In this document: positions 1-11,832 of the stretch, in pieces
Position numbering within the stretch: position 1 is the first letter of the stretch
How the letters are laid out: each line of letters begins with the position of its first letter
Assembly (NCBI GenBank): GCA_017435025.1
Contig: JAFSFU010000193.1
Coordinates: 1 to 11,832, forward strand
Direction of reading: 5' to 3'
Source: Lachnospiraceae bacterium
GTDB taxonomy: Bacteria; Bacillota_A; Clostridia; Lachnospirales; Lachnospiraceae
DNA: 11,832 bases
Position numbers and translations under genes: made by a program
The notes under the pieces: model-generated
What the model was told of the DNA's origin: nothing
Database searches by the model: none
The model's input: only the letters and a program-made list of their open reading frames with translations

Positions 1-198
1 GATGAGAACAGCATCAGCACTGTTCATCTTGTCCAGCAGAGTTGTATAGTCTGGGATGGGAGATGGCATTGCCTCATTGCACTTGACCGCCAGGATGGGC
101 CAGATCTTCTCCGGAACGGACAGAAAAACCAGGCCGGAGCCGGTACGGACGGCGGAGTTGGCGGCAAAGGCCGGAGCGCCGGTGAAGCCCACGGCACC
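1..198 (-). CDS. nnrD: NAD(P)H-hydrate dehydratase, internal fragment
   Basis: Sixty-six codons are open on the minus strand from 198 to the window edge. The translation contains GFTGAPAFAANSAVRTGSG, then a LVFLSVPE stretch and VKCNEAMP, the pattern of the ribokinase-like YjeF C-terminal family (ADP- or ATP-dependent NAD(P)H-hydrate dehydratase). That enzyme repairs hydrated NADH and NADPH in the cytoplasm. The fragment starts inside the domain: the usual N-terminal residues and start codon are absent, and the C-terminal half, with the nucleotide-binding and catalytic residues, lies beyond the edge. It follows directly, in the same frame, a TGA that ends the truncated phosphofructokinase frame. 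Its GC content is about 60% by hand count, visibly above the neighbouring gene, and it favours GCC, GTC and ACC codons. It probably comes from another genome or locus joined here. The family call is recognised from motifs only. Confidence 0.72.
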
Positions 199-1488
199 TC
201 ATCTTCCGCCGTAGCCGAAGAAGTGTGTCAGTGTGCTGAACTTGCCGTTGTATGTACCTGCTGCTTTTCTTTCCGCTAACTTATCTGCTACGAGTGCAGC
301 GAATAATTTTTCAGACTCAATGAGGGATACCTGTACGTTTCCGTGCGGGTCTCTCTCTAAGAATAACTGCTGCTGGATCGCATGCGGAAGACTCGCGAAT
401 ACTTCCATGGATTCCTTTGTTAAGCCGTTTTCGATGAAAGCATATTTTTCTTCCCATGTCGGAAGAGCATTGAATGCATCTGCCTTGCTGCCTGCAAGAA
501 GTTCGTTGATTTCATGGATCAGTGCGCCGAACTCCGGTACGAACTCAACAACGCCTTCCGGAATAACGACAAGACCGAAGTTCATGCCCTTAGCTGCTCT
601 TGCTGCAACAGAGTCGGCAATGTAATCAGCGATAGCGGAGAGGGACATCTTCTTTTCTGCGATTTCCTCGGAGATCAGACAGATATTCGGCTGTGTCTTT
701 AAGGCACACTCAAGAGCAACGTGGGAAGCAGAACGTCCCATAACCTTGATGAAGTGCCAGTATTTCTTGGAGGAGTTTGCATCACGTCCGATGTTGCCGA
801 TCAGCTCACTGAATGTCTTTGTAGCTGTATCGAAACCGAAGGAACATTCGATATCTTCATTCTTTAAGTCACCGTCGATGGTCTTCGGACATCCGATTAC
901 CTGTACACCTGTGTTGTGTGCAGCGAAGTACTCAGCTAATACTGCTGCGTTTGTGTTGGAGTCGTCACCGCCGATGATAACGATTGCTGTAACACCATGT
1001 TTCTTACATGTTTCAGAAACGATTGCGAACTGTTCCTCTGTTTCCAGCTTTGTTCTGCCGGAACCGATGATATCGAAACCGCCTGTGTTTCTGAACTGGT
1101 TGATGTACTCATCGTCAAATACAAGATAGTCATCATCTATAAGTCCGCTTGGGCCGCCCTTGAAACCTAACAGTACGTTTTCGCTGTTTGTTGCCTTTAA
1201 AGCATCATATAAACCGCAGATAACATTGTGTCCGCCCGGAGCCTGACCGCCGGAGAGAACAACACCAACAACCTGCTTCTTATTCTCGGAAGTGTTCTGA
1301 CCCTTTACGAAAGTGATTTCTTTTTTACCGTAAGTGTTCGGGAAAAGAGCTTTGATCTTATCCTGGTCTGCTACGCTCTGTGTTTCCGCGCCTTCTTTTA
1401 CACAAATCTCAGAGATACCATTTCTAAGCATTCCCGGAAGCTTCGGAGAATACTCATATCTGGCTTTCTGAAGTGGTGAAATATTCAT
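199..1488 (-). CDS. pfp: PPi-dependent 6-phosphofructokinase, 3'-truncated
   Basis: This cytoplasmic glycolytic enzyme phosphorylates fructose 6-phosphate reversibly with pyrophosphate instead of ATP. Visible motifs are the N-terminal phosphate-binding loop [11 protein letters not shown] (residues 79-88), GFKGGPSG (108-115), GSGRTKLET (142-150), GGDDSNTNA (173-181), the catalytic PKTIDGD (201-207) and MGRSASH (250-256). The Asp pair in GGDDS is the known mark of pyrophosphate use. The family is the long form of about 550 residues, resembling plant PFP and clostridial enzymes. This frame stops after 429 residues, immediately after FFGYGGR, where homologues normally continue with a Cys and about 110-120 more residues. 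The stop lies at the junction with foreign-looking sequence, so the true gene is probably longer. The start is ATG with an AAAGGAG ribosome site 8 nt upstream (1497-1503). It is divergent from hppA. Confidence 0.9.
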
Positions 1489-1525
1489 AGTTAAATCTCC
1501 TTTGTCAAAAATTGCACATAAACGA

Positions 1526-1554
1526 ATTTTAATACATTTTCGTTAAATAGTAAA
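1526..1554 (-). promoter_or_regulatory. Promoter of the phosphofructokinase gene
   Basis: Reading the minus strand, TTTACT (1549-1554) and TAAAAT (1526-1531) are separated by 17 bp and lie upstream of the AAAGGAG ribosome site. An inverted repeat AACGAA (1521-1526) / TTCGTT (1539-1544) overlaps the -10 element and could be an operator, but the arms are only 6 bp in AT-rich DNA. Confidence 0.5.
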
Positions 1555-1640
1555 CGATTTTGAGAAAAAAAGTGGATTTTGGAAGGATGAACAATTACCC
1601 TGCAAAAAAATGGCAGTTTTTGTATTTTTTGACAAACAAC

Positions 1641-1669
1641 TTGCCCTTGATTCGCGGATGTAATATAAT
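1641..1669 (+). promoter_or_regulatory. Promoter of the hppA operon
   Basis: TTGCCC (1641-1646) and a perfect TATAAT (1664-1669) are separated by 17 bp. Transcription would start near 1676, giving a leader of about 55 nt. A better-looking TTGACA at 1629-1634 lies 29 bp from the TATAAT and is too far to pair with it. Confidence 0.55.
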
Positions 1670-1731
1670 GAAAAAAACTCTGTGTTGTAGCTTGGGGCAA
1701 CATGGTATGAAAAAAGAAAGGAATGATGAGT

Positions 1732-3726
1732 ATGAATAATCTCACAGTACTTGCACCCGTAATGGGATTGGCAGCTCTGCTGTTCGCGGCGATGCTCTCA
1801 AAGAGAGTAGCGAATCAGGACGCCGGAACTGACCGTATGAAAGAAATTGCAGCTTTTATTCATGAAGGCGCACAGGCTTTCCTTATGGCCGAGTACAAGA
1901 TCCTTGTATTCTTCGTAGCCGTTCTCTTCGTTGGAATCGGTGTGGGAATCAGTTGGACAACCTCGATCGCGTTCCTCCTTGGTGCATTGTTCTCCACAAT
2001 CGCCGGTTATTGCGGTATGAACGTGGCAACAAAAGCAAACGTTCGAACAGCAGCGGCAGCGAAAGATTCCGGTATGAACAAGGCCCTTTCCATCGCTTTC
2101 TCCGGCGGTGCAGTTATGGGTATGTGCGTAGTAGGTCTTGGCCTTCTCGGTGTCGGTATCGTTTATATGACAACCGGTGATGCAAACGTACTTTCCGGTT
2201 TCTCCCTTGGTGCTTCCTCCATCGCGCTTTTTGCACGTGTGGGCGGCGGTATCTACACAAAGGCAGCCGACGTTGGTGCTGACCTGGTAGGTAAAGTCGA
2301 GGCCGGTATTCCGGAGGATGACCCGCGTAACCCGGCTACAATTGCCGATAACGTAGGTGACAACGTAGGTGACGTTGCAGGTATGGGCGCTGACCTTTTC
2401 GAGTCTTATGTTGGTTCTATCGTGTCTGCGATCACTCTCGGTGCGGTTACATACAGTATCACAGGCGCTGTATTCCCGATGCTCCTTGCAGCCGTTGGTA
2501 TTGCAGCAGCAATTGTTGGTACATTCTTTGTTAAGGGCGATGAGAATTCCAGCCCGCACAAGGCTTTAAAAACAGGTACTTATGTATCTGGTGCAGTAGT
2601 GATTGTTGCATCCCTCGTGCTGAGCAAGATGGCGTTCGGCAATTTCAATTCTGCGATCGCGATCATCTTTGGTCTTATCGTTGGTATTCTGATCGGTATC
2701 ATCACAGAGGTTTACACTTCCGGTGATTATCGCTTTGTTAAAAAGATTGCACAGCAGTCTGAGACAGGTCCGGCTACAACAGTTATCAGTGGTATTGCCG
2801 TTGGCATGCACTCCACAGCGATTCCGATTCTTCTGATCGCAGTTGGTATCATCGGTGCGTTCATGGCAAATGGCCTTTACGGTATCGCTCTTGCAGCGGT
2901 AGGTATGTTATCCACAACCGGTATCACCGTTGCGGTTGATGCGTACGGTCCGATCGCCGATAACGCCGGTGGTATCGCAGAAATGTCCGGTCTTCCGAAA
3001 TCTGTTCGTAAGATCACTGACAAACTGGATGCGGTTGGTAATACAACAGCTGCGATGGGTAAAGGTTTTGCGATCGGTTCCGCAGCTCTGACAGCGCTGG
3101 CACTGTTCGTATCTTACGCAGAAGCAGTAAAACTGTTCGATACCGGTATCAATCTTCTTGACTATAAAGTAATCGTTGGTCTGTTCATCGGTGGCATGCT
3201 GCCGTTCTTCTTCTCTGCTCTGACAATGGATTCTGTATCCAAGGCAGCTTATAAGATGATCGAAGAAGTGCGCAGACAGTTCCGTACAATCCCAGGTATC
3301 CTGGAAGGTACAGGTAAGCCGGATTATACTTCCTGTGTTGCAATCTCCACACAGGCAGCTCTGAAAGAAATGCTGGTTCCGGGTGTCCTTGCAGTTATCT
3401 CTCCGCTTCTCGTTGGTATCGGTCTCGGTACAGCGGCTCTTGGCGGTCTGCTTGCAGGTTCTCTGGTAACGGGTGTTCTGACAGCGATCTTCATGTCCAA
3501 TGCCGGTGGTGCATGGGACAATGCGAAAAAATATATTGAAGACGGAAATCATGGTGGAAAGGGAAGTGACGCACACCGTGCAGCCGTTGTAGGCGATACA
3601 GTCGGTGACCCGTTCAAGGATACTTCCGGTCCGTCCATCAACATTCTCATCAAGCTTATGACAGTTGTTGCGTTAGTATTCGCTCCACTGTTCCTGATGA
3701 TCAATCAGGGTATGGGTCTGTTGTAA
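1732..3726 (+). CDS. hppA: K+-dependent membrane pyrophosphatase (Na+-type ion pump)
   Basis: This integral membrane enzyme hydrolyses cytoplasmic pyrophosphate and pumps Na+ and/or H+ outward. About 16 hydrophobic segments are seen. The active-site loop DVGADLVGK (about 180-188) is followed by [14 protein letters not shown], the Asp repeat DNVGDNVGD (206-214), and the C-terminal [15 protein letters not shown] (from 621). In [10 protein letters not shown] the Ala at about 440, where K+-independent enzymes have Lys, indicates K+ dependence. The Glu in GADLFES (about residue 224) sits where Na+-pumping enzymes carry their TM6 Glu; plant-type H+ pumps have it one helical turn later. Na+ alone versus Na+/H+ cannot be separated here. 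Three in-frame ATGs lie at 1723, 1726 and 1732. AGGA (1719-1722) is 9 nt from the third, so I use that; the other starts add 2 or 3 residues. Length (664) is normal. A phosphate acyltransferase gene follows after 21 bp. Confidence 0.95.
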
Positions 3727-3747
3727 TTTCCGAAGGGAGAATGAAGT

Positions 3748-4677
3748 ATGCATAATTATGAAAAAGAATTTGATTTTGTGATCCAGCGTGCAAAAAGCCT
3801 GAAACGTCCGGCTCGTATGGTAGTTGCCGGTGCGGATCTTGAAAACGTTCTGATCGCGATCAGTGAGGCAGAAAAAGATGGTTTCTGCCATCCGATCCTG
3901 GTTGGTGAAAAGAATCGTATTATGGCGATGATGGGGAAACTTGGCCTTCAGAACAGCAATTACGAAATCTGCCATGTATCCGACGATGAGCTCAATGACG
4001 ACTACCATGTATATATGAAAAAAGCTCTTACGATCATCAAAGATGGTCTCGGTGACGTTCTCGTTCGTGGTAACACATCCACACGTAATTTCCTGATGCC
4101 GATTCTGGACAAGAAATACGGTATGGTAAACGGTCTGGTAAGTGAAGTTGCTCTTGTTAAGGTTCCGTACTATGACAAGGTTCTTGCACTTTCCGATATT
4201 TCTGTACTGATCAAACCGTCCGAAGGTCAGAGAAGAAAAGTTGTTAAAAATATCGTAGAAGTTCTGAACCACCTTGGTATTGAGCATCCGAGCGTAGCGG
4301 TTCTTGCACTGGTTGAGAAGCCGAGCTTCCATATGCGCGACACCGTAGAGGCACAGAATATTGTTCGTGCACATAAGAATGAGCCGATCGCAGACTGTGA
4401 ACTGGTTGGTCCGATTCCGTGGGATCTGATCGTGAGCAAAGAAGCTGCTCGTCTGAAAAAGTATGATTGCCCGTATTGTGGTGAGTTCGATGCGGTTCTG
4501 ATGCCGAACGTAATGGCAGGAAATACGGTTATGAAAGTCCTGTCCATGTCCGCAAACGCGAACAGCTGTGGTGTTCTTGCAGGAACGAAAGCTCCGGTAG
4601 CTATGTTATCCCGAAGCAGTTCTCCGGAACAGGCTTACCTGTCTTTGTGTGTAAGTGCAGCAATGCTGGCTGAATAG
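3748..4677 (+). CDS. Phosphate acetyl/butyryltransferase family protein
   Basis: A cytoplasmic enzyme of the Pta/Ptb fold that exchanges CoA and phosphate on an acyl group (acyl-CoA + Pi = acyl phosphate + CoA), normally paired with an acyl kinase for ATP formation. The C-terminal half has the family pattern: DCELVGPIPWD (216-226), MPNVMAGNTVMK (252-263) and GTKAPVAMLSRSSS (279-292), matching the GN...K and APV...SR core of phosphate butyryltransferases. The length of 309 suits Ptb. Between these blocks sits CPYCGEF (241-247), a CxxC pair that I do not recall from classical Ptb. The start ATG at 3748 has AGGGAG (3734-3739) 8 nt upstream. It follows hppA by 21 bp with no terminator between, so they are very likely cotranscribed. 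No kinase gene is adjacent. Acetyl, butyryl or another acyl specificity cannot be decided. Confidence 0.82.
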   Translation: MHNYEKEFDFVIQRAKSLKRPARMVVAGADLENVLIAISEAEKDGFCHPILVGEKNRIMAMMGKLGLQNSNYEICHVSDDELNDDYHVYMKKALTIIKDGLGDVLVRGNTSTRNFLMPILDKKYGMVNGLVSEVALVKVPYYDKVLALSDISVLIKPSEGQRRKVVKNIVEVLNHLGIEHPSVAVLALVEKPSFHMRDTVEAQNIVRAHKNEPIADCELVGPIPWDLIVSKEAARLKKYDCPYCGEFDAVLMPNVMAGNTVMKVLSMSANANSCGVLAGTKAPVAMLSRSSSPEQAYLSLCVSAAMLAE

Positions 4678-4690
4678 TCAATATGATTTT

Positions 4691-4724
4691 AAATGCCCTC
4701 CGGCCGGTCCGGGGGGCGTTTTCA
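4691..4724 (+). terminator. Terminator of the hppA-acyltransferase operon
   Basis: GCCCTCCGG (4695-4703) pairs with CCGGGGGGC (4709-4717) through 9 bp including one T-G wobble, with a 5-nt loop, followed by GTTTTC. The AAA before the stem pairs with the T run. It starts 14 bp after the acyltransferase stop codon. Confidence 0.85.
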
Positions 4725-4753
4725 TTGTAAAATACCGATATTTCCTATATAAT
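4725..4753 (+). promoter_or_regulatory. Promoter of the radical SAM gene
   Basis: TTGTAA (4725-4730) and TATAAT (4748-4753) are separated by 17 bp. The promoter begins just after the preceding terminator, and transcription would start near 4760, about 34 nt before the ATG. Confidence 0.6.
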
Positions 4754-4793
4754 AAGAGTAGAATTTTCGGTGCATATTGGAAAGGAGGCCTGT

Positions 4794-5657
4794 ATGACAA
4801 ATTCGGAGCGTTTTGCATCCATTTACAGTCATGATATCGTATATTGCCCGCCGATGGAGGAGGAGAGTGCACTGTTAGAAGTTGCATTGGGATGCAGCTG
4901 GAGCAAGTGTTTGTTCTGTGATTTTGCCAAGGACCCGTTCTGTGTACATTCGATAGAGAAGATTGAACGGAATCTCCAAATTCTGAGTGAGGCAAAAGCA
5001 GATAAAGAGCGTGTATTCTTCCTCGGTGAGAATTCCTTCTGTCTTAGCACAGCCATGCTTTTAGAAATTATGGAGATGACGAAACGGTATATGCCGCAGG
5101 TAACGACCTTTGGAATGTACGCTCGGTTTGATGATGTTCTCCGAAAGACAGACGAAGAGCTCAAGGCGCTTCATGAGGAAGGTCTTACGGATCTTCATAT
5201 GGGCTTCGAGTCCGGAAGCGATACCATTCTTCTGACCATGAATAAGGGAGTGAGTACGCAGGATATTCTGGAGGCCGTCCAAAAGATGGATCGTGCCGGT
5301 ATCGGATATCACTTTACGATCATTTTGGGGCTTGGCGGCAAGCAGTTTACAATTCCGCATGCAATGGAGACAGCACGTTTGTTGAATCGGACAAAGCCGC
5401 GCAGTATCTGGTGCTTGAATCTTAAGGTTTGGCCTGATACACCGTTGGAGAGGATGGTGAAACGGGGAGAGTTTGAGCCGCTGTCCCTGGTGGAGATGCT
5501 GCAGGAAGAATGGGTTATGCTGCAGAATTTGAATGTGAAAAACTGTTTTTATATGGATACGACTGTACTGAATCAGTATACGATTCAGGGATTCCTTCCG
5601 GAGGCAAAACCGGCCATGCTGTACGGAATGCAGCAGCTGCTGGAACAGGCAAAATAG
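4794..5657 (+). CDS. Radical SAM protein with CX4CX2C cluster motif
   Basis: A 287-residue radical SAM enzyme. GCSWSKCLFCDF (33-44) holds Cys34, Cys39 and Cys42, spaced CX4CX2C rather than the canonical CX3CX2C; these should bind the [4Fe-4S] cluster that cleaves S-adenosylmethionine. FLGENSF (76-82), MGFESGSD (136-143) and MNKGVS (149-154) match the barrel pattern of the Elp3/MiaB/HemN-like branch. No B12-binding, TRAM or SPASM domain is seen, and the substrate is unknown. The ATG at 4794 has AAAGGAGG (4781-4788) 5 nt upstream. A GTG at 4770 would add 8 residues but lies upstream of that ribosome site, so I reject it. The gene is monocistronic, between its own promoter and the promoter of the RNA that follows. 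No terminator of its own is visible, so transcripts may run to the hairpin at 5829. Confidence 0.85.
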   Translation: MTNSERFASIYSHDIVYCPPMEEESALLEVALGCSWSKCLFCDFAKDPFCVHSIEKIERNLQILSEAKADKERVFFLGENSFCLSTAMLLEIMEMTKRYMPQVTTFGMYARFDDVLRKTDEELKALHEEGLTDLHMGFESGSDTILLTMNKGVSTQDILEAVQKMDRAGIGYHFTIILGLGGKQFTIPHAMETARLLNRTKPRSIWCLNLKVWPDTPLERMVKRGEFEPLSLVEMLQEEWVMLQNLNVKNCFYMDTTVLNQYTIQGFLPEAKPAMLYGMQQLLEQAK

Positions 5658-5666
5658 GGGAAGATG

Positions 5667-5695
5667 TTGACAATTTAAAACGGACATGCTATCAT
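5667..5695 (+). promoter_or_regulatory. Strong extended -10 promoter of a noncoding RNA
   Basis: TTGACA (5667-5672, perfect) and TATCAT (5690-5695) are separated by 17 bp, and TGC directly precedes the -10 element. It begins 9 bp after the radical SAM stop codon. Transcription should start near 5702. Confidence 0.7.
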
Positions 5696-5701
5696 CTACA
5701 A

Positions 5702-5860
5702 TGCTTCGTTCTTTTGTAAAATATTTTATAAAAGGATGCGGCGAAAGGCTGAATGCCGGTATGCCATGTGTCAGGTTCTTGCCTCCCAAGCTAATTTAAG
5801 AATCTGCAAGGAAGCGACCGGTGAATCACCCCGAAACCTTATGGTTTCGGGGTTCTTTCA
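5702..5860 (+). ncRNA. Unidentified structured RNA, about 150-160 nt
   Basis: A strong promoter, about 125 nt without a credible gene, and a perfect terminator define a short transcript. Inside it CAGGTTCTT (5772-5780) pairs with AAGAATCTG (5798-5806) in a 9-bp stem with one G-T pair. GCCGGT (5755-5760) can close around it with ACCGGT (5817-5822). A 5' hairpin may form between ATGCGGC and GCCGGTAT, competing for the same bases. I could not match it to 6S RNA, SRP RNA, tmRNA or a riboswitch consensus I know. It may be a stand-alone small RNA or a leader controlling the downstream transporter gene; that gene has its own promoter after the terminator, which favours the small RNA reading. Confidence 0.55.
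5829..5860 (+). terminator. Perfect intrinsic terminator of the noncoding RNA
   Basis: CCCCGAAACC (5829-5838) and GGTTTCGGGG (5843-5852) form a perfect 10-bp stem with loop TTAT, followed by TTCTTTCATTT. The first two C residues could instead pair in a small GGTG-AAT-CACC hairpin, a modest alternative fold. Confidence 0.88.
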
Positions 5861-5867
5861 TTTGTGG

Positions 5868-5897
5868 TTGCTTGTTCGGCAAAGACCATGATATAAT
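5868..5897 (+). promoter_or_regulatory. Promoter of the GltS-like transporter gene
   Basis: TTGCTT (5868-5873) and TATAAT (5892-5897) are separated by 18 bp, with TGA immediately before the -10 element (extended -10). It lies after the noncoding RNA terminator, so the transporter can be expressed independently. Confidence 0.65.
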
Positions 5898-5936
5898 GAA
5901 ATTTAGAGAAATTTTACAATCAAGGGGAATGGTGTT

Positions 5937-7097
5937 ATGTTTGAGTTCGACTTGATACAGTGTGTGACAGTGATTCTGATTTTGATGGTATTTGGTGAAG
6001 TGGTTTCGAAACTTTTAAAAGCAGCGATTCCGGGCGTTTTGGTTACTGCATTCACCTATCTGCTGCTGGTATGGGGCGGCGTGCTGGATACGTCCATCGT
6101 AGAAAAGTCGGGAATCACTTATCTGACCAATATTGCTATGATGTGCGTGATCATCAATATGGGTGCATCGACCAATCCGAAAGAATTGAGAGAAAACTGG
6201 AGAGTGGTGGCGCTGGCTGCGATCTCGTATTTTATTCAGATTGGCGTCATGCTGCTGGTGGTGGGAACACTGTTTGGCAGAAATATGGCGATCGGTTCTC
6301 TGCCGGGCGGAGCATCGGTAGCTCTGATGATTCAGGAGAAGGCGAGAAAGCTGGGATTTGATGATGTGGTTTTATTATCAGCATTATTGCTGTCTGTAAA
6401 GGGATTATTTTCCTGTCCACTGGCATCATTTGTATTAAAGAAAGAAGTAAAACGTCTCAAAGCGCTCGGTATTTCCACCGCGGGGGTTGCGGAGGAGGAG
6501 TCGGGCAGAGAGAGCGGACAGGCATCTGAAAAAAATGACGGTAAATTTGAATCCGCCAATATGTCTCTGTTACGTTTCCTGTTCGTGGCATGGATCGCCA
6601 GTCGTCTTGAAATGCTATGCGGGTTGTCACGCTATGTATTTTGTTTACTGCTTGGTGTTGTGATGACCCAGATCGGATTTTTACATAAGGATGAGATGAA
6701 CCGTACCAAGAGTCATGGTATGCTGATGCTTATGATGATGACGTCCATTCTCAATGGTTTTTCCAATGCGACGCCGCAGATGTTTGCGGATATGATGATA
6801 CCGCTTGTCTGTGTGCTTGTTACGGAAGTGGGATGTATCTTTATTAACTCTCTGTTGTTAGGAAAAAGGTTTGGATTCAGCAGAGAGATGGGTTTCCTGG
6901 TATGCTTAAATATTATGGTTGGTTTCCCACTGAACCTGATGCTTTCCGATGATATTATCGGTTTTCTTGTGGAGGATCCGAAGGAACAGGCGGTTCTGCA
7001 TCAGCAGGTTGCAACCAAGATGGTCATTGCCGGCTTCACCAGTGTTACCTTCCTGTCCACGGTGACAATGGGTATCCTGGCCGGTTTTATTCGATAA
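5937..7097 (+). CDS. GltS-like membrane transporter, function unknown
   Basis: A 386-residue polytopic membrane protein with roughly ten hydrophobic segments in two halves. The halves are separated by a hydrophilic acidic linker at about 181-208 (EEESGRESGQ and following). The first half carries SLPGGASVALMIQEKARKLG (121-140), reminiscent of the GGHGT re-entrant loop of the Na+/glutamate symporter GltS; the arrangement of two halves around a central loop also fits that family. The GGHGT sequence itself is not conserved, so substrate and coupling ion are uncertain. The ATG at 5937 has AAGGGGA 8 nt upstream. The gene stands alone between its own promoter and a terminator. A Na+-coupled carrier would suit a cell with a Na+-type pyrophosphatase, but that is inference. 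It could instead belong to another branch of the same transporter superfamily. Confidence 0.6.
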   Translation: MFEFDLIQCVTVILILMVFGEVVSKLLKAAIPGVLVTAFTYLLLVWGGVLDTSIVEKSGITYLTNIAMMCVIINMGASTNPKELRENWRVVALAAISYFIQIGVMLLVVGTLFGRNMAIGSLPGGASVALMIQEKARKLGFDDVVLLSALLLSVKGLFSCPLASFVLKKEVKRLKALGISTAGVAEEESGRESGQASEKNDGKFESANMSLLRFLFVAWIASRLEMLCGLSRYVFCLLLGVVMTQIGFLHKDEMNRTKSHGMLMLMMMTSILNGFSNATPQMFADMMIPLVCVLVTEVGCIFINSLLLGKRFGFSREMGFLVCLNIMVGFPLNLMLSDDIIGFLVEDPKEQAVLHQQVATKMVIAGFTSVTFLSTVTMGILAGFIR

Positions 7098-7113
7098 AAA
7101 ACAACGGAATTGT

Positions 7114-7160
7114 AAAAGAGCGTTGTCTCGGGATTGAATCCTTGTGACAGCGCTCTTTTT
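7114..7160 (+). terminator. Terminator between convergent genes
   Basis: AAAAGAGCGTTGTC (7114-7127) pairs with GACAGCGCTCTTTT (7146-7159) over 14 bp with one wobble, followed by another T. The A run on the left gives a T run on the minus strand, so it may also end the regulator transcript arriving from the right. Confidence 0.88.
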
Positions 7161-7184
7161 GCATGCTTGTAAAATCATATACAG

Positions 7185-7553
7185 TTAAAATTCGGTTCCG
7201 ATATGAGATTTTAAGGCGTCGAAGCTTTCGGAACTGATCACATGCTCGATGCGGCATGCATCTTCGGTGGCGATATCTTTCGGCACCCCCAGTCTCATAA
7301 GCCAGGTGGAAATTATTGTATGGCGTTCATACATTTTCTCGGCAATTTCCAGACCGGATTCCGTTAGGGAAATATGGCCGTTATCTTCTACTTGAATATA
7401 GCCGCTGGTGCGCAGGTTCTTCATAGCGACACTGACACTTGGCTTGGAGAAATTTAACTCGTTGGCGATATCGATGGAGCGAACGAAGGACTGTTTCTGT
7501 CCGAGCATATAGATAGTTTCCAGATAGTTTTCCGCTGATTCGTGAATTTTCAA
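7185..7553 (-). CDS. DtxR-family metal-dependent regulator, short form
   Basis: A 122-residue metal-sensing transcription factor with a winged helix (about 25-64; SIDIANELNFSKPSVS around the recognition helix) and a dimerisation and metal-binding helix bundle. It lacks the C-terminal SH3-like domain of DtxR/IdeR, like MntR. Compared from memory with DtxR and MntR, the first-site positions are Asn9 (Met10 in DtxR, Asp8 in MntR), Cys100 (Cys102 in DtxR, Glu99 in MntR), Glu103 and His104 in ACRIEHVIS. His78 matches DtxR His79, while the other ancillary ligands look replaced. Cys100 favours a DtxR-like ferrous iron sensor, by inference. The start is TTG with a strong AGGAGGA (7561-7567) 7 nt upstream; no ATG is near. 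It is divergent from an operon whose promoter is covered by a large dyad, and is the likely repressor. Confidence 0.88.
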   Translation of the reverse strand: MKIHESAENYLETIYMLGQKQSFVRSIDIANELNFSKPSVSVAMKNLRTSGYIQVEDNGHISLTESGLEIAEKMYERHTIISTWLMRLGVPKDIATEDACRIEHVISSESFDALKSHIGTEF

Positions 7554-7589
7554 AGAAGCGTCCTCCTGTTAAGAATATAATTAAAATTC

Positions 7590-7618
7590 ATTATAACATA
7601 GGAATCTTTATGGGTCAA
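7590..7618 (-). promoter_or_regulatory. Promoter of the DtxR-family regulator gene
   Basis: On the minus strand TTGACC (7613-7618) and a perfect TATAAT (7590-7595) are separated by 17 bp. The dyad at 7662-7705 is 43 bp further upstream, so the regulator promoter is not itself covered by it. Confidence 0.7.
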
Positions 7619-7650
7619 ATTATATAAAATGAAAAATGGGAACAAAATAC

Positions 7651-7679
7651 TTGACAAAACAGTTAGTGCATGCTAACTT
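7651..7679 (+). promoter_or_regulatory. Promoter of the DUF2325-DUF3793-flavodoxin operon
   Basis: A perfect TTGACA (7651-7656) is 17 bp from TAACTT (7674-7679), a weak -10 helped by a preceding TGC (extended -10). The first operator box overlaps the spacer and -10. Transcription would start near 7686, inside the operator. Confidence 0.6.
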
Positions 7680-7705
7680 ATAGCTATGAGTTAGCATACG
7701 CTAAC
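7662..7705 (+). promoter_or_regulatory. 44-bp double operator, probable DtxR-family site
   Basis: Two boxes of the form GTTAG-N6-CTAAC lie at 7662-7677 and 7690-7705, with centres 28 bp apart. The whole 44 bp is itself a dyad: comparing it with its reverse complement, only 3 of 22 symmetric pairs mismatch. The core TTAG-N6-CTAA resembles DtxR-type operators. It covers the -10 and start of the downstream operon, so binding should repress. The match to the adjacent regulator is inferred from position and symmetry. Confidence 0.78.
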
Positions 7706-7778
7706 CAATAAGAATATAACGAATTGCCGAAAATGAAAGATATGAGTGGGAGTAAACTGAAGGCAGGAGGCGAGGGAG

Positions 7779-8060
7779 ATGAGCGTCGTAATTATCGGAG
7801 GACATGACCGCATGGTCAGAAAATATAAGGATATTTGTATGAAACATAATTATAAGGCGAAAGTATTCACCCAGATGTGCACCGGATTGAGCAAAAAGGT
7901 GGGATGTCCCGATCTTTTAATTCTGTTCACCAACACGGTCTCTCACAAAATGATTCATTGTGTCACGGATGCGATTGACGAGAAGAGAACCGATGTGATT
8001 CGATGTCATACCAGCAGCCAGGCCGCATTGACGGAAATTCTGGAAAGACACAGCGCATGA
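7779..8060 (+). CDS. DUF2325 domain protein
   Basis: A 93-residue cytoplasmic protein with the pattern of DUF2325: VVIIGGHDRM at the N-terminus, YKAKVF (25-30), and PDLLILFTNTVSHKM (44-58). A short Rossmann-like alternation of beta strands and helices seems likely. No function is established that I know of. It is rich in possible metal or redox ligands for its size: five Cys (20, 34, 43, 61, 76) and six His (9, 24, 56, 60, 77, 91). It is the first gene after the 44-bp operator, so it should be made when the DtxR-family repressor releases. The ATG has AGGAGG (7765-7770) 8 nt upstream. The DUF3793 gene starts 18 bp after its stop. Confidence 0.85.
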   Translation: MSVVIIGGHDRMVRKYKDICMKHNYKAKVFTQMCTGLSKKVGCPDLLILFTNTVSHKMIHCVTDAIDEKRTDVIRCHTSSQAALTEILERHSA

Positions 8061-8078
8061 GGAAAGGCAGGTAATGGA

Positions 8079-8696
8079 ATGAGCGATGAAACTCTCAGCA
8101 TTATGAGGCGATTGGACACCAGTGTGGCAGAAATTCAGGCATCTTTGCAGTGTGCCCCGCTTTTGACTGGGATTAAGGTCTCCAATCTTCTGCAGATACG
8201 CAGTGAACAGATGGAAGAAGTGTTCCGGATGTTTGAGGGAACACAGATCTCCTGTCGTGTTTTGTCCCAAAAAGAGTGCAAGACGGCCATTCTTTTATAT
8301 AGAAGAAATCGGTTGATCCGCTATCTGTCACAGGAGGATGTGCGGGAACTGATGGAGGAATTCGGTTACTCTGAAACTGTTCTGGAACAGATTCTTGAAA
8401 AGTTGTCGGTTCATTATCAGGCTTATGTGGATGGAAACGCAGATTTTCCTCATGAGATCGGTCTGCTTTTGGGGTATCCGCCGGAGGATGTGATCGGTTT
8501 TATCGAGAATGAAGGCAAAAATTGTCTCTATTCCGGTTATTGGAAGGTATATGGTGACCCGGAAAAAGCGAAGAAAACGTTCGACGGCTATGACAGGGCG
8601 AAGGAAGCAGTCATTCGTATGGCGGGCAGCGGCTTCGGAGTGAAGGACATTGTGGCGTTCTATAATATTATGAGACGTCGTCAATTAATTGCGTAA
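8079..8696 (+). CDS. DUF3793 family protein
   Basis: A 205-residue soluble protein matching DUF3793 by FPHEIGLLLGYPPEDVIGF (123-141) and YSGYWKVY (151-158), followed by a region with spaced A, F and Y residues (AKKTFDGYDRA, 164-174). The family is common in anaerobic Firmicutes and has no assigned function. It has no signal peptide or membrane segment. Residues 1-120 look mainly helical, with a Leu/Glu-rich stretch (85-110). The last 20 residues (DIVAFYNIMRRRQ) resemble a short basic helix. It sits between the DUF2325 and flavodoxin genes, 18 and 20 bp from each, in one metal-controlled operon, so a role in iron-limited electron transfer or flavodoxin maturation is possible but unproven. The ribosome site is weak (GGCAGG, 8066-8071), which suggests translation coupled to the gene before. 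Confidence 0.85.
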   Translation: MSDETLSIMRRLDTSVAEIQASLQCAPLLTGIKVSNLLQIRSEQMEEVFRMFEGTQISCRVLSQKECKTAILLYRRNRLIRYLSQEDVRELMEEFGYSETVLEQILEKLSVHYQAYVDGNADFPHEIGLLLGYPPEDVIGFIENEGKNCLYSGYWKVYGDPEKAKKTFDGYDRAKEAVIRMAGSGFGVKDIVAFYNIMRRRQLIA

Positions 8697-8716
8697 AAAT
8701 CAGGAGGAAAAAGGAA

Positions 8717-9151
8717 ATGAGTAAGATTATTGTTGCATACTGGAGTCAGACAGGTAATACAGCAGCTATGGCAGCTGCTATTGGTCAGGGAATTACGGAT
8801 GGAGGAAAAGAAGCGGTTGTTGCCGATGTATCTTCTGTATCCATGGATGACTTAAAGGCAGCGGATGTATTTGCAATGGGCTGTCCGGCTATGGGAGACG
8901 AGGTCCTCGAGGAGAGCGAGATGGAACCGTTCGTAATGGAGGTGGAAGGTTTTGCGACAGGCAAGAAGATTGCACTGTTTGGTTCCTACGGCTGGGGTGA
9001 CGGTCAGTGGATGAGAGATTGGGAGGAGCGGATGAATGCAGCAGGCGCGACACTGGTCGGCGGCGAGGGCTTAATTTTAAATGAAACACCGGATGCCGAT
9101 GGACTTGAAGCATGTGCTGCACTAGGCAAGGAGTTGGCTGCTCTGAAATAG
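8717..9151 (+). CDS. Short-chain flavodoxin
   Basis: A 144-residue FMN electron carrier. SQTGNT (10-15) is the phosphate-binding loop for FMN after the first strand KIIVAYW. GCPAMGDEVLEES (55-67) is the 60s loop, and FGSYGWGDGQWMRDW (88-102) the 90s loop with aromatic residues near the flavin. The length is that of short-chain flavodoxins. Flavodoxins replace ferredoxin when iron is scarce, which agrees with control by a DtxR-family iron sensor. The ATG has AGGAGG (8702-8707) 9 nt upstream. It is the last gene of the operon, closed by a strong terminator at 9185. The redox partners cannot be told from this window. Confidence 0.93.
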   Translation: MSKIIVAYWSQTGNTAAMAAAIGQGITDGGKEAVVADVSSVSMDDLKAADVFAMGCPAMGDEVLEESEMEPFVMEVEGFATGKKIALFGSYGWGDGQWMRDWEERMNAAGATLVGGEGLILNETPDADGLEACAALGKELAALK

Positions 9152-9184
9152 ATAGTAATTGTAACTTCATATATATCTCCAAAA

Positions 9185-9223
9185 GACCGCCGTTCTGCAG
9201 CATGCAGACGGCGGTCAATTTTT
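9185..9223 (+). terminator. Terminator shared by flavodoxin and regulator genes
   Basis: GACCGCCG (9185-9192) pairs with CGGCGGTC (9209-9216), and an inner CTGCA/TGCAG stem (9195-9199, 9203-9207) closes on a GCA loop, with one bulged T. AATTTTT follows. The AAAA before the stem gives a T run on the other strand, so it probably ends both converging transcripts. Confidence 0.9.
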
Positions 9224-9228
9224 GCTGA

Positions 9229-10539
9229 TCAGAAAAACTCCTGAATAAATTTTTGTTTCATAAAACGATACTGTCTTGTAGGTCGCCCTTTTCCCTCCTG
9301 TTTCTGCGGCTCGATCTCCTCGATCAGACCGGAGTCTAAAAGCTGCTGTAGGATTCGATTGCAGCTGCGGGCAGTAATGTTCAGCCACTGGGAGAGCGAA
9401 GCTGCGGTCATGACTGTATATTGGTCCATCTGGAAGAGGCCAACGATCTTGAGCAGATTGCTTTCGTTGATTCCGTTTTTCTGTGAGTATTCCAGGGCTT
9501 TTGTGTTGGAATAACTGTAATTGAGCGGGCTGGAAAGGGAGAGGGGACCGGTCAGGACGTTCTCGTCGCCGTGAATGATAAAACCATCATTTTTTCCATA
9601 GCGGATTGCTTCCTGCAATGCGGATTCAGCCTGGTAATGACTTTCGCTCAGGGTTTTGCGGAAACCGGCGCCCAGGCGATATTCCAGACCTTCTTTCTGA
9701 TTTAAATAGAAGATCAGGTCACGGATTTTGTCGAAGCTTGCGCGATACAGTTCGCTGTCCATGGTCAGTTCAAAACGGTTGGAAACATTGTGGACGGAGA
9801 AGTCATACCCATATTCTTTTCGGAAATCCAAAAGATACTTGTGCAAAGTGATTTCCAGGTATTCGCGTTCGTGGGAAGAAATATCCTCCGGATAGATCAG
9901 TCGGATCAGAGTGACCATTTTTCCGGCCTGCCGTTCTTTGCGGAGTCGGATCGTATTGATGGCACTGCGGATGGAGCCGCGGATCATTTCCTCAGACGGA
10001 AGGAAATGGATATACGGGATTTTCAGTTTGTTGAGAACTTCCAGCTGATTGGTTGTTCTTGTGAGCATCATGTCGATCTTTCCGGCTTTCCATAATTCTT
10101 CTGCCCGTTCGCGGAGTGTTTGGTAGTTGTATTCCGGATTCTCGAACAGATAGGGCATATAATTTGGTGTCAGATAATTCTTCAGGTTCATGAAGTTGTT
10201 GACCGGAGTCAGAAAATCAATATAGATACGATTTAAAGGAATGTGGGGATATCGGATCACTACATTCAGAAGGATTGATAAAATATCCTTTTCTTCATAG
10301 GAAATAAAGGTACAAGGGACTTGAATGTCCGTAATATGACTTAGCATATAAGAATACCCCAGTTCGCCGGAAAAAAAGATTACATCGCAGGAGTCCTTGC
10401 ACTCTTCATAGAAGGTTCCGATCTCTTCCAGTCGGTCATATACATATTTGTGAAATACACATCCGAAATCATGGTTTTCCAAGGCTTTGTTGATAGCATC
10501 CATGGATTTTTGAGGACTCATAATTACAACGGTTATCAT
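9229..10539 (-). CDS. Transcription regulator: sensor, GGDEF-like domain, winged helix
   Basis: A 436-residue protein that I do not recognise by name. Residues 1-200 look like a PrpR/receiver-like alpha/beta sensor: alternating hydrophobic strands such as TVVIMS, DVIFFSG and CTFISYEE, and IDMMLTRT near 155-162. Residues 208-332 resemble a degenerate GGDEF or GTP cyclohydrolase III-like domain: VTLIRLIY strand, YRLGAGFRKTLSESHYQAE (287-305), ALQEAIRYGKNDGF, then GPL; no GGDEF signature is present, so cyclase activity is unlikely. Residues 365-427 form a winged helix with recognition-helix sequence LNITARSCNRILQQLLDSG (386-404) and a GKGRPTRQYRF wing. The ATG has AAGGAG (10548-10553) 8 nt upstream. 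It is divergent from gdhA, and control of that gene in response to a small molecule is the natural guess. Confidence 0.72.
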   Translation of the reverse strand: MITVVIMSPQKSMDAINKALENHDFGCVFHKYVYDRLEEIGTFYEECKDSCDVIFFSGELGYSYMLSHITDIQVPCTFISYEEKDILSILLNVVIRYPHIPLNRIYIDFLTPVNNFMNLKNYLTPNYMPYLFENPEYNYQTLRERAEELWKAGKIDMMLTRTTNQLEVLNKLKIPYIHFLPSEEMIRGSIRSAINTIRLRKERQAGKMVTLIRLIYPEDISSHEREYLEITLHKYLLDFRKEYGYDFSVHNVSNRFELTMDSELYRASFDKIRDLIFYLNQKEGLEYRLGAGFRKTLSESHYQAESALQEAIRYGKNDGFIIHGDENVLTGPLSLSSPLNYSYSNTKALEYSQKNGINESNLLKIVGLFQMDQYTVMTAASLSQWLNITARSCNRILQQLLDSGLIEEIEPQKQEGKGRPTRQYRFMKQKFIQEFF

Positions 10540-10609
10540 AGAAAAAACTCCTTTTTATTACTGACGGATTCCGGCATATTCGGATTTGGAAAACAATGGG
10601 TCTTTTAAT

Positions 10610-10639
10610 GACAAGTATGTCGATAAATCGTGTCTTGTC
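10610..10639. repeat. Inverted repeat between regulator and gdhA
   Basis: GACAAG (10610-10615) and CTTGTC (10634-10639) flank a central CGAT-AA-ATCG. The inner and outer arms are slightly out of register (5 versus 3 bp). It lies about 20 bp upstream of the gdhA -35 element and in the probable promoter of the divergent regulator (CTGACA-N16-CATACT on the minus strand), so it is a possible operator for both. Confidence 0.4.
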
Positions 10640-10658
10640 AGAATCGTACCACAGATTA

Positions 10659-10687
10659 TTGACAAAGTCAAAACCCCATGCTACAAT
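10659..10687 (+). promoter_or_regulatory. Strong extended -10 promoter of gdhA
   Basis: A perfect TTGACA (10659-10664) is 17 bp from TACAAT (10682-10687), with TGC directly before the -10. Transcription would start near 10694, which leaves a leader of about 316 nt before the gdhA ATG. Confidence 0.72.
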
Positions 10688-10746
10688 TAAACCAAATAAA
10701 AGACGTAAAATACATGAGTCTATAATATAAGGGGTTTATGTTAAAA

Positions 10747-10778
10747 CCTTTCCGGATAGGGAAACGGAAAGGATTTTT
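10747..10778 (+). terminator. Terminator-like hairpin (attenuator) in the gdhA leader
   Basis: CCTTTCCG (10747-10754) and CGGAAAGG (10765-10772) form a perfect 8-bp stem with a 10-nt loop, extended by AAAA/TTTT and followed by ATTTTTGC. It lies about 55-85 nt after the predicted start. It could end most transcripts early, giving an RNA of about 85 nt, unless antitermination or a second promoter operates. Confidence 0.6.
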
Positions 10779-10974
10779 GCATGGACATCGGTAAAAATGC
10801 TTTTGTTTTTCGAAATAAAAGTTTGTACATAATTTGTTTGAAAAATTCAGACAGATCGTGAGATTTTGCCGATAAAGGATCTTAGGATTTTTGCTTATTT
10901 TGAGACGCAATGCCTCAAAAAAGGACCCAAAAAAGTATTTTAAGTCTCTTATTGGTGCGTAATGCGCACAGGGG

Positions 10975-10994
10975 TTAAAAAACCAATTTTTTAA
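10975..10994 (+). promoter_or_regulatory. AT hairpin overlapping the gdhA ribosome site
   Basis: TTAAAAAA and TTTTTTAA pair perfectly over 8 bp around a CCAA loop. The last two bases belong to the Shine-Dalgarno sequence AAGGAGGT (10993-11000), which lies 9 nt before the ATG. The ACCAA that would pair with TTGGT upstream sits at this loop, so two folds compete. Either could tune ribosome access. Confidence 0.4.
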
Positions 10995-11009
10995 GGAGGT
11001 ATTTGCGAA

Positions 11010-11832
11010 ATGAGCAAGTATATTGAGAGAGTATTAGCTGAAGTTAGAGAGAAAAACGCACATGAGCCGGAGTTCCTTCAGACTGTAGAAGAAGTTTTAG
11101 AGTCCTTAGCTCCGATCGTTGACGCTCATCCGGAATATGAGAAGATCGCTCTTCTTGAGAGAATGGTAGAGCCGGAAAGAACAATCGAGTTCCGCGTTCC
11201 GTGGGTAGATGACAATGGTCAGACACACGTTAACCGTGGTTACCGCGTACAGTTCAACGGCGCTATTGGACCGTACAAGGGTGGCTTACGTTTCGCTCCG
11301 AACGTAACACTTTCCATCATGAAATTCTTAGGTTTCGAGCAGACATTCAAAAACTCCTTAACAACACTCCCGATGGGTGGTGCTAAAGGTGGTGCTGACT
11401 TCGATCCGAACGGCAGATCCGACGGTGAGATCATGAGATTCTGCCAGAGCTTCATGAACGAATTATATCGTCACATCGGTCCGGACGTTGATATCCCGGC
11501 TGGTGACCTTGGCGTAGGTGCTAAAGAGATCGGCTATATGTATGGTCAGTACAGAAAACTCCGTGCAGCATTCGAGAACGGCACAATCACAGGTAAGGGA
11601 ATGTCCTTCGGTGGTTCCTTAATCCGTCCGGAAGCTACAGGTTTCGGTGCTGTATACTACGTAGAAGCTGTTATGAAACATGAGAACGATACACTTGCTG
11701 GCAAGACAGTTGCAGTATCCGGTTTCGGTAACGTTGCTTGGGGTATCTGTAAGAAACTTGCTGAGTTAGGCGCTAAAGCTGTTACATTATCCGGTCCGGA
11801 TGGATACATCTACGATCCGGAAGGTATCACAA
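11010..11832 (+). CDS. gdhA: Glutamate dehydrogenase, probably NAD-dependent, 3'-partial
   Basis: The hexameric enzyme interconverts glutamate and 2-oxoglutarate plus ammonium. The window holds residues 1-274 of about 450 and runs off the right edge. Glutamate-binding and catalytic motifs are present: GPYKGGLRF (88-96, Lys90), FKNSLT (113-118, Lys114), GGAKGGADFDP (123-133, Lys126) and PAGDLGVG (163-170, catalytic Asp166). RPEATGFG (206-213) leads into the nucleotide-binding fold with SGFGNVAWG (237-245). After the second strand it reads LSGPDGYIYDPEGIT, which as I remember is the same as in the NAD-specific enzyme of Clostridium symbiosum and unlike the NADP enzyme of E. coli. NAD use, and so glutamate catabolism, is the likelier role. 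The ATG at 11010 has a full AAGGAGGT 9 nt upstream. It is expressed from a strong promoter through a long leader and is divergent from a regulator. Confidence 0.95.
   Translation, partial: MSKYIERVLAEVREKNAHEPEFLQTVEEVLESLAPIVDAHPEYEKIALLERMVEPERTIEFRVPWVDDNGQTHVNRGYRVQFNGAIGPYKGGLRFAPNVTLSIMKFLGFEQTFKNSLTTLPMGGAKGGADFDPNGRSDGEIMRFCQSFMNELYRHIGPDVDIPAGDLGVGAKEIGYMYGQYRKLRAAFENGTITGKGMSFGGSLIRPEATGFGAVYYVEAVMKHENDTLAGKTVAVSGFGNVAWGICKKLAELGAKAVTLSGPDGYIYDPEGIT

Follow-up and report, generated by a model that had tools for sequence, protein, structure and literature searches.

Why should two DUF proteins be encoded directly upstream of a flavodoxin, behind an operator of the kind bound by metal repressors? 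The question is raised by the DUF2325-DUF3793-flavodoxin gene group in an 11,832-nucleotide stretch of DNA from a Lachnospiraceae bacterium (NCBI GenBank assembly GCA_017435025.1, contig JAFSFU010000193.1, positions 1 to 11,832), hereafter called the window. On balance we lean towards an iron-starvation operon, comprising a DtxR-repressed flavodoxin with DUF3793 as its direct partner and DUF2325 in iron handling. Our best reading would make DUF3793 a low-iron partner of flavodoxin and DUF2325 an accessory linked to Feo and flavodoxin.

The operon, its operators and its likely repressor

The three genes follow one another on the forward strand. The first (7779-8060) encodes a DUF2325 protein of 93 aa (Pfam PF10087, 105.5 bits against a cut-off of 33.6), the second (8079-8696) a DUF3793 protein of 205 aa (PF12672, 190.1 bits; cut-off, 25.1) and the third (8717-9151) a short-chain flavodoxin of 144 aa, which scores 64.6 bits against Flavodoxin_1 (cut-off, 25), passes the NCBIfam model flav_short (TIGR01753; 143.9 bits, cut-off 123) and has solved homologues in PDB entries 2fax (E 7.4e-43) and 2fox (E 2.6e-42). 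The open reading frame coordinates give intergenic gaps of 18 bp between DUF2325 and DUF3793 and 20 bp between DUF3793 and flavodoxin, the same values as in an earlier note on this DNA, and from this layout we infer that the three genes are co-transcribed as one operon.

A -35-like TTGACA is read at 7651-7656 on the forward strand, and two exact copies of the palindrome GTTAG-N6-CTAAC, the motif of related loci, come directly after it: operator 1, GTTAGTGCATGCTAAC, at 7662-7677 and operator 2, GTTAGCATACGCTAAC, at 7690-7705, neither assigned to a strand. They are spaced 28 bp start to start, and 200 shuffles of the window gave a mean of 0.00. The putative extended -10 (TGC-TAACTT, 7671-7679, forward strand, with a 17-nt spacer) is counted as our own reading because a consensus promoter scan did not include the operon promoter among those it listed.

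We compared the window with loci of relatives, designated L plus a number, of which L001-L080 are the best 80 of 566 by similarity to DUF3793. Across these 81 loci GTTAG-N6-CTAAC is the top-ranked gapped palindrome upstream of the module, occurring in 54 against a mean of 0.1 in ten shuffled sets; a recount with slightly different limits found it in 53 of 80 (41 of the 63 with flavodoxin and 12 of the 17 without). An 18-bp form, AGTTAG-N6-CTAACT, is present in 11 of 12 related genomes at 23 sites, one to four per genome, and the reversed control pattern gave two sites.

Divergently from the operon, a gene on the reverse strand (7185-7553) encodes a short DtxR-family metal repressor of 122 aa, matching Pfam Fe_dep_repr_C and Fe_dep_repress. 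Its DNA-binding and metal-binding/dimerisation domains both exceed the Pfam cut-offs (52.9 against 26 and 59.3 against 27 bits, respectively), and it likely controls the operon. Domains, palindromes and divergent repressor gene agree with the earlier note, which had placed two DUF genes and a flavodoxin behind a metal-repressor-type operator. That the operon holds no iron transporter, as also claimed there, stands for the window, where none was found among the proteins scanned with Pfam, but is true only locally, as in relatives the locus or the regulon includes feoAB.

Because the same operator in relatives also precedes feoA/feoB (L129, L136 and L140-L142), a fur-ZIP gene (L139) and genes for FecCD permeases with an ABC ATPase (L132), iron is very probably the signal of the operon. 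DUF2325 has an operator of its own in L129, L130 and L136. A Peripla_BP_2 binding protein is encoded behind the operator in L137, where an AraC-type gene flanks the site from the opposite side, and in L138 the operator is followed by a DtxR gene and one for a DUF438/hemerythrin/PAS protein (5835-7131), a possible iron or oxygen sensor within the regulon. ABC exporter genes lie behind it in L131 (4664-6468) and L134; in L131 a TetR gene terminates short of the site, and it is the exporter gene that follows the site. Other sites face genes of no evident iron role, namely enolase (L133, L139), methyltransferases (L134, L139) and a Trep_Strep membrane protein (L135).

That an MntR-like repressor makes the operon answer to Mn(II) or a different metal, and not to iron, seems improbable to us. 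The repressor is of about MntR length (122 aa against 226-230 aa for the matched full-length IdeR/DtxR chains), and in NCBIfam and PDB alike it matches MntR best. However, it reaches neither MntR equivalog cut-off of NCBIfam (88.8 against 153 bits and 71.7 against 138), and feoA/feoB, fur-ZIP and FecCD genes are among the operator's other targets. In alignment, its EDACRIEHVI pairs with EACRWEHVMS of IdeR whilst MntR chains show DVEGIEHHLS, and it holds IdeR's Cys at the position where MntR has Glu. Cys-Glu-His residues are metal ligands of the DtxR/IdeR iron type, of which a C-terminal SH3-like domain is a further feature. The window repressor carries the IdeR-type motif as DACRIEH, and the pattern DAC[RK].EH recurs in 16 of the 21 open reading frames labelled DtxR across the 81 loci (some lie several kb away from the module); five have no clear motif. 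No SH3-like domain was found in the repressor, for which Pfam gives just the two DtxR domains and a sub-cut-off MarR_2 match. Known DtxR/IdeR and feoAB regulons are resembled in the DACxxEH motif of a DtxR-family repressor and in the feoA/feoB genes behind the same operator in relatives; they differ in that the repressor here is short, with no room for the SH3-like domain, the operator is GTTAG-N6-CTAAC, and the targets take in DUF2325 and DUF3793-flavodoxin.

Linkage of DUF3793 to flavodoxin

Conserved linkage, a check suggested in the earlier note, is present in two phyla. Among the 80 close relatives, flavodoxin lies within 2.2 kb of DUF3793 in 63, and in 62 of these it is downstream on the same strand, a median of 31 bp separating the DUF3793 stop from the point where the flavodoxin domain match begins. 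DUF2325 is found upstream of DUF3793 in 22 of the 80 and downstream in six, the window's exact gene order recurring in 19. Of the 17 loci that lack flavodoxin, two break off within 800 bp. A stricter cluster, one member of which was confirmed by Pfam, places feoB within 6 kb of DUF3793 in 11 of 80 loci; a lax threshold gives 17 of 80 within 6.5 kb, with a profile that may catch other GTPases.

Family-wide, 299 genomes of the phylum of L001 were sampled, 52 of which yielded 55 matches. After one fragment was dropped, 54 loci were examined: flavodoxin is present in 24, the operator in ten (all ten with flavodoxin) and DUF2325 in four. In Synergistota, our name for the phylum of the Synergistaceae genome holding L067, DUF3793 occurs in 48 of 149 genomes; flavodoxin adjoins it in 30 of the 30 loci listed, with the operator in five and a feo match in none. 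Thirty control loci of PGI (27 distinct genes) from the phylum of L001 contained no flavodoxin, feo or operator. On a DUF3793 tree of 67 rows (52 of the 54 family-wide loci, the window and 14 of the 30 Synergistota loci), 5 changes suffice to explain the flavodoxin label, where shuffled labels, which take no account of relatedness, need 22 on average.

These data bear on whether the neighbourhood is a product of chance or a relic of shared ancestry, devoid of functional meaning. Some DUF3793 clades do have unrelated neighbours (DUF441, OpuAC, PGI, Mn-catalase-like), but the conservation of the operator against 0.1 expected, the short same-strand distances in the 62 loci and the occurrence of the linkage in two phyla leave this explanation with very little credibility.

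A DUF3793-flavodoxin fusion was considered as a Rosetta stone and rejected. P0090, a 304-aa candidate carrying both Pfam domains, is missing the last part of DUF3793 and the first part of flavodoxin, and it lies on a single contig of 2250 bases. P0110 is a second odd tail, and both were taken as deletion or assembly products. Elsewhere, flavodoxin-less DUF3793 genes adjoin a Mn-catalase/rubrerythrin-like gene (L152, 6202-7453; the same arrangement, judged by position, in L154 and L155) or are followed by an FTR1 iron permease gene (L150, 5077-7289).

Partnership or co-regulation

The production of flavodoxin at low iron is already known, as is a DUF2023-flavodoxin operon with low-iron induction. 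The predicted structure of DUF3793 (predicted local distance difference test score, pLDDT, 96.6) has as its best VIA-align match 2GUK, the DUF2023 protein PG1857, although Foldseek ranks a different protein above all others and the sequences lend weak support; in Pfam, the window protein gave no match to DUF2023 (PF09633) at E 0.001. DUF3793 and DUF2023 possibly belong to one superfamily. In the part of the published work available, DUF2023-flavodoxin operons of three Bacteroidetes are up 48- to 598-fold at low iron, with values of 159-fold for flavodoxin and 164-fold for DUF2023 in intermedia, and of 598-fold for BT0516 and 326-fold for BT0517 in B. thetaiotaomicron (PMC10434189). These fldA operons (PG1857-PG1858, BT0516-BT0517, PIOMA14_I_0020-21) share with ours a DUF protein adjoining flavodoxin, and strong low-iron induction has been published for them. 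They differ in Pfam family, in length (205 aa for DUF3793 against about 110 for DUF2023) and in that DUF2325 is not named in the part of that paper available (PMC10434189).

DUF2023 occurs in 19 of 149 Synergistota genomes and in none of 199 genomes of the phylum containing Clostridia; named matches include Bacteroidales, Fusobacterium, Deltaproteobacteria and the archaeon Methanosalsum. The two families co-occur in 0 of the 149 Synergistota genomes where about 6 were expected, with P 0.0003 only under an independence of genomes that does not hold. DUF3793 probably fills the role taken by DUF2023 in Bacteroidota and some of the Synergistota. A wider proposal, which we offer tentatively and regard as rather less than probable, is that both are branches of one ancient flavodoxin-helper family spanning Bacillota, Synergistota, Bacteroidota, Fusobacteria and some archaea, whose members would let flavodoxin replace ferredoxin at low iron and replace one another between genomes, DUF2325 being an unrecognised accessory of Feo uptake recruited into the operon.

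DUF2325, which was found in 44 of 199 genomes, keeps different company. In the 30 loci listed, feo genes lie within about 1.5 kb in ten (nine without flavodoxin), flavodoxin in four, DUF3793 in three and the operator in five; the PGI control gave feo in none of 30. The two DUFs therefore separate, DUF3793 being mostly with flavodoxin and DUF2325 commoner with feo than with flavodoxin. Gene orders include DUF2325-FeoA-FeoB (L218, L222) and DUF2325-flavodoxin-FeoA-FeoB (L233), and DUF2325 is inside or beside feo operons lacking DUF3793 in L218, L222, L233 and L238. We regard it as a candidate unrecognised Feo accessory. Its model (pLDDT 94.5) is a four-strand alpha/beta structure with a receiver/Rossmann-like fold by structure matches; since the invariant residues G7, G8, T51, T53, S55, H56, K57 and S80 are placed after strand ends, the model suggests a ligand site. 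Cys20 is likewise invariant. Cj1384 of Campylobacter likewise has a DUF2325 domain and is reported to be regulated by PerR and RacRS, but it belongs to a katA cluster and to oxidative and light stress, with no link to flavodoxin or feo in the available part of the report (PMC9426514).

In the chief competitor to a direct partnership, both DUF proteins serve iron starvation in general, whether as a regulator that spares iron, a handler of Fe(II) in the cytosol or an accessory to Feo, and are co-regulated with flavodoxin without acting on it. We consider this possible but somewhat doubtful. It is favoured by the ten of 30 DUF2325 loci with feo genes nearby; by DUF2325 behind the operator where no flavodoxin, DUF3793 or feo is labelled nearby (L130, L220); and by flavodoxin-less DUF3793 genes neighbouring FTR1 (L150) or feoB (L004, L024). 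Ten inspected DUF2023 loci point the same way: five lie beside feoB (one also with flavodoxin, four without a flavodoxin match), and the other five have neither by the profiles used. These feoB-linked DUF2023 loci, together with the 30 of 54 family-wide DUF3793 loci that lack flavodoxin, favour co-regulation. However, the adjacency in all 30 Synergistota loci, free of feo, is tighter than co-regulation alone requires, and the linkage recurs on deep branches of the tree. The strictness of the Synergistota adjacency speaks for direct partnership.

Under the partnership we prefer, the divergent DtxR-type repressor would bind both promoter palindromes when Fe(II) is plentiful, shutting the promoter. 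As iron falls it would leave, and flavodoxin, DUF3793 and DUF2325 would be made. Flavodoxin would then take ferredoxin's place, and DUF3793 would most likely act on it directly, as a small soluble partner aiding this takeover, perhaps by docking flavodoxin to ferredoxin-dependent enzymes or by handling apo- or holo-flavodoxin. DUF2325, judged by its feo neighbours, would most likely serve iron handling. The low-iron module proposed in the earlier note gains strong support by comparison from the linkage, the shared operator, the IdeR-type motif and, by analogy, the induction of DUF2023-flavodoxin operons; its suggestions that the DUFs are flavodoxin partners, maturation factors or iron-sparing factors stay at the level of candidates.

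Surroundings and significance

A putative Rho-independent terminator, a hairpin followed by AATTTTTG, closes the operon at about 9185-9223 on the forward strand, between convergent genes; the hairpin has a folding energy of -28.3 kcal/mol (z -5.67) and was missed by a simple terminator scan. Next to it, a gene at 9229-10539 encodes a protein of 436 aa that matches winged-helix domains weakly at its C-terminal end and fits no Pfam family above cut-off; the gene stays beside the operon in L001 and L002, the closest two relatives. A 386-aa protein (5937-7097), also with no Pfam family above cut-off, has a weak LrgA-like stretch and is likely a membrane protein. Farther away (199-3726), divergent neighbouring genes encode a phosphofructokinase and a membrane H+-pyrophosphatase, a pair that suggests pyrophosphate-linked glycolysis. 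Rfam at gathering threshold gave no match in the window. In relatives, enolase genes stand behind GTTAG-N6-CTAAC in two genomes (L133, 4758-6133; L139, 4937-6335), making this enzyme of glycolysis a possible member of the low-iron regulon. One genome, G009, has five operator sites in 11 kb near ABC exporter genes (L134, 1520-12312) and, at a separate place, a further exporter with its own site (L131, 4664-6468).

Flavodoxins with a predicted Fur box, read as ferredoxin substitutes, are described in C. difficile (fldX) and Desulfovibrio (fld); these involve Fur instead of DtxR, fldX is monocistronic, and the portions of those reports available name no DUF partner. In the open-licence literature we found no paper tying DUF3793 or DUF2325 to flavodoxin, Feo or a DtxR operator; the accessible text on DUF3793 is just a table entry for a fungal protein. 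The earlier note had named a known function unrelated to metals as evidence against its proposal, and the papers found report no known function for either DUF.

Switching from ferredoxin to flavodoxin is a central iron-saving move of anaerobes, and there is, to our knowledge, little explanation of how flavodoxin comes to suit enzymes made for ferredoxin. A neighbour of flavodoxin that is conserved in more than one phylum and preceded by an operator of the iron type is a concrete candidate for a factor in this adaptation. Three DUFs (DUF3793, DUF2325 and DUF2023) are made testable, the hypothetical protein PG1857 (2GUK) may gain relatives outside its own family, and the operator offers a means to predict low-iron regulons in Clostridia. 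Similar gene groupings recur in distantly related anaerobes, and DUF3793 and DUF2325, linked to iron by their genomic context, are good candidates for unrecognised parts of the microbial response to iron shortage.
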